In this document: positions 27,094-33,066 of the stretch, one piece after another
Layout: each line of letters begins with the position of its first letter
How positions within the stretch are numbered: the stretch's first letter is position 1
Source of the DNA: Sulfurovum sp.
GTDB taxonomy: Bacteria > Campylobacterota > Campylobacteria > Campylobacterales > Sulfurovaceae
Length of the DNA: 36,070 nt
NCBI GenBank assembly: GCA_003978395.1
Contig: QNZV01000114.1
Span: 1-36,070, forward strand
Direction of reading: 5' to 3'
Position numbers and translations under genes: made by a program
Notes under the pieces: generated by a model
Database searches by the model: none
The model's input: the letters and a program-made list of their open reading frames with translations, nothing else
Told to the model about the DNA's origin: nothing

Positions 27094-28101
27094 TCATGAG
27101 CCTTTAACCATCCTAAAAACTCCCTCCATTACCTTAGCCATCTTTTCATAATCCAATGTATCTGGAGTATCTTTTGGGGTATGATAATTATCTGAACGAT
27201 AAAAAGCCGTATCGCTAATCATCAATGCAGGGTAACCAAACTTCCAATAGTTTCGATGGTCTGAAAAATCAATCCCAGCAATCATCGCAGGGGCATTTAT
27301 GGAGTATACAGGTAAGTTTGAAGTCGATTTTAGAACATTTTTAGCCTCTCGAACCTCTAAAATATTTGCAAAGTTACTAACCACCGAAATAAAATTTGCT
27401 TTTTTAGGATAGTAAACGTCCATCAATGGAACAGGATACATTTGAGAGTTTGGCTCATCACTATAGAAACCTATCATGTCTAACACAATGGCTACTTTGA
27501 CTTTGATATTTTGCTCTTTTAGACGCTTGGCATGGATGAAACTACCCATCTTCTCTGTTCCAAAAGCAGGTGGTTCTTCTAGGGTATAGGAGACTATCTG
27601 CACGTCACATTTTGGTGGATTGTTTTTTAATACTCGTGCTAATTCAATGAGTCCTGCTACAGCCGATGTGTTGTCATTTGCTCCTGCATGACCACCAAAA
27701 GTATCATAATGACCACCGACAATGGTTAATCCCTCACTGCATTCTGACGTACCTTTAAAGTTCGCAATCACATTTTTATACTCAAATACCTCATCATCCA
27801 CAAACTCTTTTAGCTTAAACGTCTGATAGCTTACATCATCGCTATATTTTGAAAATTCATCATAAATATAAGTGGCTGTTGCATCCAACATCTCTAGGTT
27901 AGAGTAGACTCTATCATCAAACTTTTCAACAATAGTATAGACCTGTTTTTTCAAATTTTTAACTTTAATATACTCTATTCTGTCATTTGTACTTTGGTTT
28001 GTAAAGGTAGGTTGAGCCACCATAAACCATATAATGATGATAAATACAGTAAGTGCTATCAAAATGGTCATGATGTCCTCTTTTAAGTTCCAATTATTCA
28101 T
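27094..28101 (-). CDS. M28-family metallopeptidase, N-terminally membrane-anchored
   Basis: VGGHYDTFGGHAGANDNTSAVAGLIELAR; SYTLEEPPAFGTEKMGS; VLDMIGFYSD; SDNYHTPKDTPDTLDYEKM. Confidence 0.9.
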   Translation of the reverse strand: MNNWNLKEDIMTILIALTVFIIIIWFMVAQPTFTNQSTNDRIEYIKVKNLKKQVYTIVEKFDDRVYSNLEMLDATATYIYDEFSKYSDDVSYQTFKLKEFVDDEVFEYKNVIANFKGTSECSEGLTIVGGHYDTFGGHAGANDNTSAVAGLIELARVLKNNPPKCDVQIVSYTLEEPPAFGTEKMGSFIHAKRLKEQNIKVKVAIVLDMIGFYSDEPNSQMYPVPLMDVYYPKKANFISVVSNFANILEVREAKNVLKSTSNLPVYSINAPAMIAGIDFSDHRNYWKFGYPALMISDTAFYRSDNYHTPKDTPDTLDYEKMAKVMEGVFRMVKGS

Positions 28102-29712: not shown

Positions 29713-29753
29713 TTGATAGTATATTACAACAACGTTGCAAAAGCGTTGCAAAA
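29713..29753 (-). promoter_or_regulatory. Lipoprotein promoter with 11-bp-phased direct repeat operator
   Basis: Minus strand TTTTGCAACG-C-TTTTGCAACG-TTGTTGTAA-TATACT-ATCAA; -10 at 29718-29723. Confidence 0.72.
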
Positions 29754-29789
29754 TGTGAAAAAATATTCTTTGATATAAAAGAGATAGTA

Positions 29790-30479
29790 TTAATCTTCTA
29801 TTCTAAAGATATATCCTTCTGATGGATAGGTTTCTATAAAGTTTTGTTTTAATTTTTGACGAAGTCTACTAATGAGAGAGCGTCTTCTACTTGGATTACT
29901 CTCTTTTTCTGGCCAAAGTTGGTACTCTATATCTGCAATAGAGATAAGATGATTTTTGTGTTCTAAAAACAAGAGTAAAAGAGTTCTCTCTTTTTTTGTT
30001 AAACTAATCATCGTATTGTTGTAGAAGAGTTGTGAAGATTCATTATTGAAACTAAAGTTCTTATCAAGATAGAGTGTATTAGATAGAGAATCATTGGTTT
30101 GAAATTCATTATCAAGCTTTTTTAGGAGTTCTTGAATTTTTATAAAAGTAAATGGTTTTACGATATAGGCATCAACTTTATAGTTTATGCACTCTAAAAA
30201 GTAATTGGTTTTTGTATAGGCAGAGACAACAATTATCTGAATTGTTTTATCTTTTTCTCTTATCTTCTGAATCAGTTCAATCCCATTCATTTTAGGCAAT
30301 TCAATATCTACAAGAAGCGTATCAATTTTATATTTTAAGAGTATCTCATATCCTCTTTCTGCATTATCAACCACATATATTTTTTCAAAGTAGTTTTCAA
30401 AAACTTTTGAGATATTTTCTAAAACTTCTCTCTCATCCTCAATATAAAGAGCAACTTTATTTTTTAGCCTATTAAACAT
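29790..30479 (-). CDS. Response regulator, OmpR-type winged-helix output (paralogue 1)
   Basis: Receiver (IEDEREVLENIS, LVDIELPKMNGIEL, VVSAYTK, VKPFT) plus LTKKERTLLLLFLEHKNHLISIADIEYQLWPEK...SRRRSLISRLRQKL. Confidence 0.92.
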   Translation of the reverse strand: MFNRLKNKVALYIEDEREVLENISKVFENYFEKIYVVDNAERGYEILLKYKIDTLLVDIELPKMNGIELIQKIREKDKTIQIIVVSAYTKTNYFLECINYKVDAYIVKPFTFIKIQELLKKLDNEFQTNDSLSNTLYLDKNFSFNNESSQLFYNNTMISLTKKERTLLLLFLEHKNHLISIADIEYQLWPEKESNPSRRRSLISRLRQKLKQNFIETYPSEGYIFRIED

Positions 30480-30493
30480 TCATTTTATCCTTC

Positions 30494-30534
30494 TTGATAG
30501 AATATCATTGTCGCGTCACAAAAACGTTGCAAAA
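30494..30534 (-). promoter_or_regulatory. Promoter of response regulator 1 with same operator architecture
   Basis: Minus strand TTTTGCAACG-T-TTTTGTGACG-CGACAATGA-TATTCT-ATCAA; -10 at 30499-30504. Confidence 0.7.
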
Positions 30535-30559: not shown

Positions 30560-31228
30560 TTAAATTCTAAAAACATACCCTTCTGATGCATGTGTTTCAA
30601 TAAACTTATGTTTTAATTTAGCACGTAATCGGCTAACAAGAGAGCGTCTGCGACTATCATTACTGGGTTTATTAGGCCAAAGCTCATATTCGATCTTTTC
30701 TATCGTTATTAAGTGGTTTTTCTGTTTTAAAAAAAGAATAAGTAATGTTCGTTCCTTTTTAGTTAGAGAGACATTCTCTCCACAGCAGATAAGTTCTAAT
30801 GATTTTGTATCAAAGCTAAATTCATTGTCCAAAATAATATCGCCTGTCATCATAATGGACTCTTTATTTTTTAGTGCTATTTTAATAGAAACAGCTAAAT
30901 CTTTTCGATTAAAAGGTTTTGTTAAATAGGCTTCAGGATTTACTTCTATGGCTCTATCTATGGTCTCTTCATCCATATATGCAGATAGAAAAATAATAGG
31001 TAAATTAGGTTTTATTTTCTTTATTCTTATTGTGGCTTCAATCCCATCACTCTCTATTAGATATATATCCATTAAAACCAAATCAATATCATTTGAGATG
31101 GCTTTTTTATAAGCTTCATCAGCTGAGGAACAGATAGCTACAACATTATAATTTAGAGATAAAAGATAACTCTCTATCTCCATTGCAACAATGCTTTCAT
31201 CTTCAACAATTAATATATTTTTATTCAT
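30560..31228 (-). CDS. Response regulator, OmpR-type winged-helix output (paralogue 2)
   Basis: ILIVEDESIVAMEIESYLLSLNYNVV, LVLMDIYLIESDGIEAT, FLSAYMDEETIDRA, TKPFNRKDL; C-terminal domain closely resembles paralogue 1. Confidence 0.93.
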   Translation of the reverse strand: MNKNILIVEDESIVAMEIESYLLSLNYNVVAICSSADEAYKKAISNDIDLVLMDIYLIESDGIEATIRIKKIKPNLPIIFLSAYMDEETIDRAIEVNPEAYLTKPFNRKDLAVSIKIALKNKESIMMTGDIILDNEFSFDTKSLELICCGENVSLTKKERTLLILFLKQKNHLITIEKIEYELWPNKPSNDSRRRSLVSRLRAKLKHKFIETHASEGYVFRI

Positions 31229-33066
31229 TATTTAAATCCTATGGTATATTTAGTTGATTCTTTAGTCTCCATTTTTATTGTTCCTTTGAGTTGTTCTATA
31301 ATGAGTTTATGAATAAGTTTTAATCCTAATGATTCGTTCTTTTGATTATAGACAAATCCTTTTCCGTTATCAGAGACAATTAAATAATAAGTTTCTTTCT
31401 CTTTATAGAGTTGAATAGAAACACTTCCCTCTTGAGCATCAAAGGCATATTTATAAGAGTTGGTTACCAACTCATTAATAATAATTCCTATATAGACAGC
31501 TTTTCGTAAGGGTAATGAAGCATTAATTTCGGTCTCTAAGAGAATATTAGAATTTTTATGAAACATACTACTTTCTATATCTAAAAGCAAAGCCTCTATA
31601 TACTCTTCCATATCAATATTTTCTAAATTCTCTTCTACGATAAGCATATTATATGTTTTTGCAATGGCATTAATACGATTTTCTATATTGGTAAACTTCT
31701 CTTTTACTTTCATATCTATGATTTTATCACTTTGTAGTCGTATCATCGACAGAATAATTTGTAAATTATTTTTTACTCTATGGTGTACCTCTCTAAGTAG
31801 TAAACTTTTTGCTTTTAATGCTTTATTCAGTTGAGATGTTTTTAAAACGACTTCATCTTTTATTATATTTTCTCTATTTTTATCTGCTTCCTCTTTTTGC
31901 ATCTGTAAAATTTTGTATCTATCAACAAAGGCTAACGATAAAATAAGTGCTTCAACGGTTGTTCCCCAAATTAAAGTGTTTGGAAAGTGTTGTACAATAG
32001 AGATTAAACCCAAAGCATTGAGTATGAGTATGCTGTAGGATATAAAAACAATACTAAAGCCAATAATAAAAAGTCGGGCTTGTTGATTCCCATGTCTATA
32101 AGAGATGATAGAGGCGACAAGATTAAAGATAATAAGTAAGGCACTGGTTAAAATTGTAATTTGAAGATTATATAGAGTAGGAATATTTAGAATAGTTATC
32201 TCTAAAAGGGCTATTAGAATAAATCCTTTATAAATTTTGTTTAAAATAGGTATCTCCATTGTTTTTAAAAAATAGATAGAAAAGAGAGAGGAAGAGATTA
32301 TCATAAGAGCTATTTTTGTATTTGCCATCCTAATCTCAATGTTTGTTATAAACTCCAATGGTAAGTATAGTTGATTTAATCCTAAATAGCTCCCTTGTTG
32401 ATAGACAAGTGTTAATAGATAAAGACTGTAATAGAGATAACTTTTATCTTTGGCATAGATTGAAAGAATAAAACTGTAAATCATTAAAATTATAATCATT
32501 GCTAATAACATTGCTTTTACAAGTTGTTGTTGTAAATCTTCTTTCTGAAACTGTTGCTTATCGTTCAGTACAATTTTAAAATTAATGGGTGTCCAATAGG
32601 AGTTAACTTTTATATAGTACTCTTTTGATTCTTTTGCTTCTAGTTGAATTTCGTAACTGGGACAGAGTGCTACCCTCTCTTTATCTATATATTTTACACC
32701 ATTTAAAAGAGGTTTGTTTAAATTGGTACTGTTGTAAAGTTCAATCTGTTCCAGAATTGGAGAGCTTAGAATCAATACTTTTTCTATATTTGTTGTTGCA
32801 CTATTCTTAAGTTTTATTTTTATCCAAATGGTTATTTTTTTGAGACCTATATTGATTTCTGATTCAAGATAAGGCTTAAAAAGGTTTTTCTGAAGCACCT
32901 CTTTGATTGTTTGATTATTATCTTTGTCAAAATAGACTTCACTATACTCAAGGATAGAGATGGCTTCTTTCTCTTTTGAAATATCAAGAGGAGAGAGTGC
33001 ATGAAGAGAGATAGAGAAGAATAATAGTAAAATAAATGATTTAATATTTTCAATATAAATAAACAT
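31228..33066 (-). CDS. Sensor histidine kinase: 7TMR-DISM sensor + HisKA_2 + HATPase
   Basis: Periplasmic DISM-like N-domain, seven TM segments, LLREVHHRVKNNLQIILSMIRLQS (HisKA_2 H-box), NELVTNSYKYAFD and DNGKGF (HATPase); TAATG stop/start overlap with 30560-31228. Confidence 0.93.
   Translation of the reverse strand: MFIYIENIKSFILLLFFSISLHALSPLDISKEKEAISILEYSEVYFDKDNNQTIKEVLQKNLFKPYLESEINIGLKKITIWIKIKLKNSATTNIEKVLILSSPILEQIELYNSTNLNKPLLNGVKYIDKERVALCPSYEIQLEAKESKEYYIKVNSYWTPINFKIVLNDKQQFQKEDLQQQLVKAMLLAMIIILMIYSFILSIYAKDKSYLYYSLYLLTLVYQQGSYLGLNQLYLPLEFITNIEIRMANTKIALMIISSSLFSIYFLKTMEIPILNKIYKGFILIALLEITILNIPTLYNLQITILTSALLIIFNLVASIISYRHGNQQARLFIIGFSIVFISYSILILNALGLISIVQHFPNTLIWGTTVEALILSLAFVDRYKILQMQKEEADKNRENIIKDEVVLKTSQLNKALKAKSLLLREVHHRVKNNLQIILSMIRLQSDKIIDMKVKEKFTNIENRINAIAKTYNMLIVEENLENIDMEEYIEALLLDIESSMFHKNSNILLETEINASLPLRKAVYIGIIINELVTNSYKYAFDAQEGSVSIQLYKEKETYYLIVSDNGKGFVYNQKNESLGLKLIHKLIIEQLKGTIKMETKESTKYTIGFK

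Follow-up and report, generated by a model that had tools for sequence, protein, structure and literature searches.

Genes of the locus

The window, by which we mean the whole stretch of 36,070 nucleotides that was analysed, carries on its minus strand, in this order, a histidine kinase, a first response regulator (RR-A), an 80-bp gap with operator 2, a second response regulator (RR-B), a gap with operator 1, a lipoprotein gene, and an M28 peptidase gene. The features are listed below in the direction of reading, the two operators being candidates.

31228..33066, minus strand: 7TMR-DISM/HisKA_2 histidine kinase (Pfam PF07696, PF07695, PF07568, and PF02518 above cut-off)
30560..31228, minus strand: RR-A, OmpR/PhoB-type response regulator, 222 aa (PF00072 and PF00486 above gathering scores)
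30514..30534, minus strand: candidate operator 2, with TTTTGCAACG at 30534-30525, T at 30524, and TTTTGTGACG at 30523-30514
30499..30504, minus strand: -10 hexamer TATTCT belonging to operator 2, after N9 at 30513-30505 and followed by ATCAA
29790..30479, minus strand: RR-B, 229 aa (PF00072 and PF00486 above gathering scores)
29733..29753, minus strand: candidate operator 1, with TTTTGCAACG at 29753-29744, C at 29743, and TTTTGCAACG at 29742-29733, the decamers 11 bp apart
29718..29723, minus strand: -10 hexamer TATACT belonging to operator 1, after N9 at 29732-29724 and followed by ATCAA
28179..29672, minus strand: lipoprotein with a PKD/K319L-like domain, 497 aa, target gene (Pfam PF22352 and PF00801)
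27094..28101, minus strand: M28 peptidase, separated from the lipoprotein by 77 bp (Pfam PF04389)

The sequence-only reading had placed a 7TM-DISM/OmpR-type system with two OmpR-type regulators at this locus, and the Pfam domains, all above cut-off, bear it out. The kinase combines DISMED2, 7TM, HisKA_2, and HATPase domains and is thereby of the 7TMR-DISM class. Its reading frame overlaps that of RR-A by 1 nt, and RR-A is presumed to be its cognate partner. Both regulators consist of an N-terminal receiver and a C-terminal winged helix (Trans_reg_C), as is characteristic of the OmpR/PhoB family, and the receiver residues associated with phosphorylation, read from the sequence, are present in RR-A (E9/D10, D54, S82, and K104) as well as in RR-B (E14/D15, D58, S86, and K108). 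RR-A additionally matches DrrD (1KGS) over its full length (E = 1.4e-19). The N-terminus of the lipoprotein carries the lipobox LSLIFTGC, and the peptidase is possibly co-transcribed with it.

Two promoters with the same repeat and spacing

The general form of the site, read on the minus strand, is TTTTGCAACG-N1-TTTTG(CA/TG)ACG-N9-(-10), and it occurs twice in the window. The initial description, two promoters sharing an 11-bp-phased repeat 9 nt from the -10 box with ATCAA behind it, proved exact on direct reading. When TTTTGYRACGNTTTTGYRACG was searched at up to 3 mismatches, three window matches were obtained, namely the two perfect ones and an overlapping register shift of operator 1, against a chance expectation of 0.05 +/- 0.22 per window in dinucleotide shuffles. 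One of the sites had been described as lying upstream of response regulator 1. It does precede a regulator gene, with a start codon about 20 nt past TATTCT, but the gene is RR-B, the second and promoter-distal regulator; RR-A, which directly follows the kinase, has no such operator upstream. An extra half-repeat in the lipoprotein spacer, TTGTTGTAATA, is conserved neither in the relatives nor at other sites, and was therefore not counted.

The geometry is fixed. Half-site gaps of 0-8 bp were scanned, and all 10 perfect matches have a gap of 1; found without demanding a -10, each of them has one at 9 nt. A grid of periods and gaps in the RR-A loci gave 20 sites at period 11/gap 9 versus 0-5 at any other combination tried. 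The 9-nt gap is likewise common to all 18 sites used for the matrix, which by construction of the search never lie over or downstream of the -10. The arrangement is that of an OmpR/PhoB-type operator: two direct repeats with a period of ~11 bp stand in for the -35 at a fixed distance ahead of the -10. Nor does inspection of the window promoters reveal a -35-like hexamer 16-18 bp from the -10 on which polymerase could rely without the regulator.

Distribution of the motif and its target genes

The assembly from which the window derives (1.64 Mb, 173 contigs, ~75% complete) was scanned with consensus patterns, not with the matrix. A single further strong site was found at up to 3 mismatches, TTTTGCAACG-T-TTTTGCAACA-N9-TATAAT (G000:C12:9988-9968, minus strand), which precedes the gene of a 510-aa vWA-type lipoprotein. 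The possibility that the motif is equally frequent in coding DNA was dispelled, since the strong sites of this genome are all intergenic and promoter-placed. Two 3-mismatch matches were rejected: one on C137 lies within a coding frame and has no -10 at the right position, and one on C115, before a porin-like gene, is of the Pho type described below.

Across 34 genomes of the genus, the motif together with a -10 was matched 24 times, including a handful of Pho-type sites, as against a single match of the reversed pattern. The genus sites are mostly found upstream of genes for lipoproteins or secreted proteins, with a start codon within ~130 nt of nearly all of them. Of the 33 collected sites, 15 have a lipoprotein gene downstream, whereas of the 319 remaining reading frames of these loci only ~26 encode lipoproteins (p = 2e-7, a heuristic value from a crude signal test, in which several genes scored 'sec' or 'none' read as lipoproteins). 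Domains of the target proteins include PKD, Ig-like, vWA, and carboxypeptidase-regulatory-like modules.

The sites are also retained upstream of orthologues, as an operator was expected to be. The lipoprotein orthologues in G001 (L129) and on contig L056 have the same promoter site, and before the RR-B orthologue on L056, 21 bp are identical to operator 2, including the TTTTGTGACG half-site, with TATTCT also kept. Sites recur in other families although the flanks have diverged. As a separate observation, very large secreted-type proteins are encoded between regulon sites in L131:5196-13672 (G022:C102), one of 1676 aa that combines vWA with F5/8 type C domains and one of 1149 aa without a Pfam match, which suggests a surface or envelope cluster.

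RR-A as the regulator associated with the motif

RR-A relatives were counted in 12 of the 34 genus genomes and in 17 of 400 genomes of the order. Orthologues (54-100% identity) are present in 11 genus genomes, 10 of which have the motif, versus 2 of the remaining 23 (10 genomes with both, 2 with the motif only, 1 with RR-A only, and 21 with neither; p = 5e-6, kinship ignored). In G030, which has the motif only, the contig breaks off at the place that the kinase and RR-A occupy in G032. In G020, which also has the motif, the RR-A relative is just 38% identical and its own locus is without the site.

Physical linkage is stronger evidence than this co-occurrence. In G001, G007, and G011, a site follows RR-A after 13-42 bp, and in other families the distance between site and RR-A is 25, 59, 179, and 693 bp in G260, G348, G372, and G073, respectively, while in G164 the two are adjacent; the adjacent sites of G372 and G164 were found by the matrix. 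Among the 400 order genomes, strict matches outside the genus are limited to G260, G348, and G073, all less than 0.7 kb from an RR-A orthologue, and a Pho-like site in G062. For each of the first three, a position so near RR-A would arise by chance with a probability of 0.0004-0.001. The locus search revealed no recognisable site near the RR-A orthologues of G033, G163, G259, G268, G276, G417, and G422.

Regulator and operator also appear to vary together. Recognition helices of the form RR[SAT]L[IV][SN]RLR or LRALVSRLR go with TTTTGCAAYG-type sites. In the sister genus g4 (G239, G174, and G377), the kinase/RR-A pair is accompanied by TTTTG[TG]CACA, present twice with the same period and gap; here the helix reads [IL]RTLV[RK]RLR[QE] (e.g., RTLVRRLRQ) and the operator half-site TTTTGTCACA. 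Because G073, with the helix LRALVSRLRA, retains TTTTGCAATG, these few cases suggest that the residue preceding RLR (S/N or R/K) may be a determinant of operator specificity.

Taken together, co-occurrence with RR-A, linkage, and helix/operator covariation argue strongly that the motif is the operator of the kinase-RR-A system. The suggestion that it serves the local system is hence upheld in that it tracks RR-A within the genus and adjoins RR-A orthologues in other families. In G359 (L171:5745-6218), the RR-A orthologue contains an in-frame TAG and may therefore be broken; an operator-like site is still present in that locus.

RR-B as a receiver/DNA-binding-domain mosaic

The two domains of RR-B have different affinities. 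The DNA-binding domain shares 71% identity with that of RR-A and retains SRRRSLISRLR in the recognition helix, whereas its receiver is only 26% identical to that of RR-A and 50-57% identical to another lineage ('MYDxLKDK'). In the receiver tree, RR-B groups within a clade of 17 rows that contains no RR-A (support 100/99), while in the DNA-binding-domain tree it lies within the 14-row genus RR-A clade (support 100/99). Judged from its sequence, RR-B is a mosaic, with a DNA-binding domain descended from RR-A and a receiver from another regulator lineage. This point is new to the present analysis and had gone unnoticed in the sequence-only reading.

RR-B was found only in its own genome and on contig L056 (DQTL01000045.1), where positions 1-2775 hold the RR-B/lipoprotein locus at 77-85% identity (85% for RR-B itself). 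L056 has three sites, before RR-B, before another lipoprotein gene, and before the orthologue of the window lipoprotein. Since L056 comes from an independent assembly and has the same arrangement, the mosaic is not an assembly artefact. L056 is filed under a Lutibacter (Bacteroidota) assembly but has campylobacterote gene content, and is probably a misbinned campylobacterote contig.

Because the DNA-binding domain is of the RR-A type, both regulators should share the operator, so that two receivers, probably with different inputs, would read one site, RR-B itself being among the targets. Some regulators of the 'MYDxLKDK' lineage adjoin a cache-type kinase. A search for an RR-B kinase yielded relatives of that kinase in the same genome, with alignments confined to the C-terminal kinase region. 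A 689-aa kinase without an adjoining regulator, encoded at L007:2858-4927 (G000:C12) ~3.5 kb away from the gene of the vWA lipoprotein, is a possible partner of RR-B. Elsewhere, L060:7461-7496 has CTTTGCCACA-C-TTTTGCCACA-N9-TATGAT beside a regulator of RR-B's receiver lineage, i.e., the same geometry with another half-site.

Pho-type operators of the genus

The genus contains a second class of operators with TTTTGTAACCA twice at 11 bp, 9 nt from the -10, and the half-site TGTAACCA. A spacing control gave 33 matches at N9 and none at N10. These sites occur in 22 of the 34 genomes, many of them without RR-A, and the genes behind them encode porin, PstS, PstC-like, and PiT-like proteins, so that the set looks like the Pho regulon of the genus. 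An example is found at G000:C115:6653-6688 (L008), with -10 TATACT; others are in L046-L048, L055, and L191-L205. The window motif falls outside this regulon: its targets are lipoproteins and RR-B, it is essentially confined to genomes with RR-A, and its half-site differs from the Pho-type one at positions 10-11. The two motif searches overlap in borderline matches only, the G011 site having 3 mismatches as Pho-type and a few Pho sites 3 mismatches as RR-A-type. Pho boxes of such geometry mediate activation in well-studied systems. Since the window motif shares its 11-bp/9-nt geometry with the Pho-type promoters of the genus, activation of the PhoB kind, from the -35 region, is the favoured mode here as well.

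Alternative explanations

Four other readings deserve consideration. That the repeats are a dispersed repeat element, or that AT-rich promoters merely look alike by chance, might be expected in an AT-rich genome where T-runs are common, but is refuted statistically by the shuffles and reversed-pattern controls and is at odds with the conservation of sites in other families despite diverged flanks; we give it practically no weight. The repeats could instead be Pho boxes that belong to the PhoB-like regulator of the genus and have nothing to do with the local regulators. The identical geometry and similar half-site TGTAACCA of the Pho-type operators speak for this, yet those operators are widespread in genomes lacking RR-A and precede porin, pst, and PiT-like genes, whereas TTTTGYAACG sites are essentially confined to RR-A genomes and precede lipoproteins and RR-B. 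With the difference at positions 10-11 and the merely borderline overlap of the searches, the Pho-box explanation appears very improbable.

The remaining two concern how the operator is used. Because the sites cover the expected -35 position, RR-A and RR-B might bind there as repressors that block polymerase, a mode of action that was weighed for PceP too, though with arguments against it (PMC7755780). However, the Pho-type promoters of the genus are built to the same geometry, and without the regulator no -35-like hexamer would be left for polymerase at the usual distance. We therefore regard repression as unlikely. Slightly less so, though still doubtful, is the reading in which the operator serves RR-A only, RR-B being a decaying or inhibitory duplicate that fails to bind or merely competes. 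The rarity of RR-B would agree with this, but RR-B has kept both the SRRRSLISRLR helix and its phosphorylation residues, and its gene and promoter site are preserved in L056 at 85% identity; RR-B may nonetheless compete at the operator.

Proposed mechanism

The reading that we prefer, and consider quite probable as a whole, is that the repeat would serve the local two-component system as its operator, acting by PhoB-like activation, with the mosaic RR-B as a second reader. The 7TMR-DISM/HisKA_2 kinase would phosphorylate RR-A, which would then bind as a head-to-tail tandem dimer on one helix face, one subunit per TTTTG(C/T)AACG half-site. Positioned 9 nt upstream of the -10 in place of a -35, the dimer would recruit RNA polymerase (class II activation) and thereby drive lipoprotein and secreted-protein genes, the role that PhoB has at pho boxes. 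RR-B would have arisen in this lineage by joining an RR-A-type DNA-binding domain to the receiver of a different regulator lineage; it would read the same operator, answer to another phosphodonor, and, being expressed from one of these operators, add a self-amplifying step to a regulon under two-input control. We infer binding, activation rather than repression, and the separate input of RR-B, the direction of control being argued from geometry alone.

We further suggest, with the balance for and against about even, that RR-B is a naturally recombined regulator through which an existing regulon would receive a second, unrelated phospho-signal, a one-step rewiring that would create a two-input, self-amplifying switch under the same operator and in which mixed RR-A/RR-B dimers may form. 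If so, RR-B offers a clean natural case of wiring a new input into an old regulon. More generally, a poorly studied lineage, taken to be Sulfurovum-like from named relatives among the loci, gains a candidate operator, regulator, and target set, and the helix/operator covariation series could help to work out how regulators of this branch recognise their DNA.

Comparison with known systems

In the literature on operator motifs of Sulfurovum regulators and on 7TMR-DISM systems in Epsilonproteobacteria, we found nothing on this motif. A close parallel is PceS/PceP of Sulfurospirillum, from the same phylum, which likewise pairs an OmpR-family regulator with a kinase having a periplasmic sensor and seven transmembrane helices. 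PceP binds, as shown by EMSA, direct repeats overlapping the -35, with CTATA at 11-bp steps, and its own regulator operon is a target (PMC7755780). The half-site differs, however (CTATW, with the outer copies 17 bp apart), the system controls organohalide respiration, and no mosaic second regulator is described in that study; the likeness between PceP and RR-A is one of architecture and operator and not a claim of homology.

The pho box consists of tandem 11-nt direct repeats, with seven conserved and four less conserved bases, to which PhoB binds head-to-tail (PMC4415409). Here, by contrast, the repeat is TTTTGCAACG, the targets are lipoproteins rather than phosphate genes, and the kinase is of the 7TMR-DISM/HisKA_2 type. 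PhoP of M. tuberculosis forms a compact tandem dimer on direct repeats of 7 bp kept strictly 4 bp apart, which amounts to an 11-bp period, and a one-base change in spacing costs it ~20-fold in affinity (PMC4832192). Its half-site and regulon are unrelated to those described here, and the likeness concerns the repeat period. It is on the geometry of the pho box and PhoP, together with the Pho-type promoters of the genus, that we base our proposal of class II activation by a tandem dimer.

In the CmrRST system of Clostridioides difficile, two OmpR-family regulators and one kinase share a locus, a regulator binds upstream of its own operon, and heterodimers are possible (PMC12548384). CmrR, however, uses an inverted repeat, and CmrT likely has a pseudoreceiver, whereas RR-B combines an intact receiver of foreign lineage with an RR-A-type DNA-binding domain.
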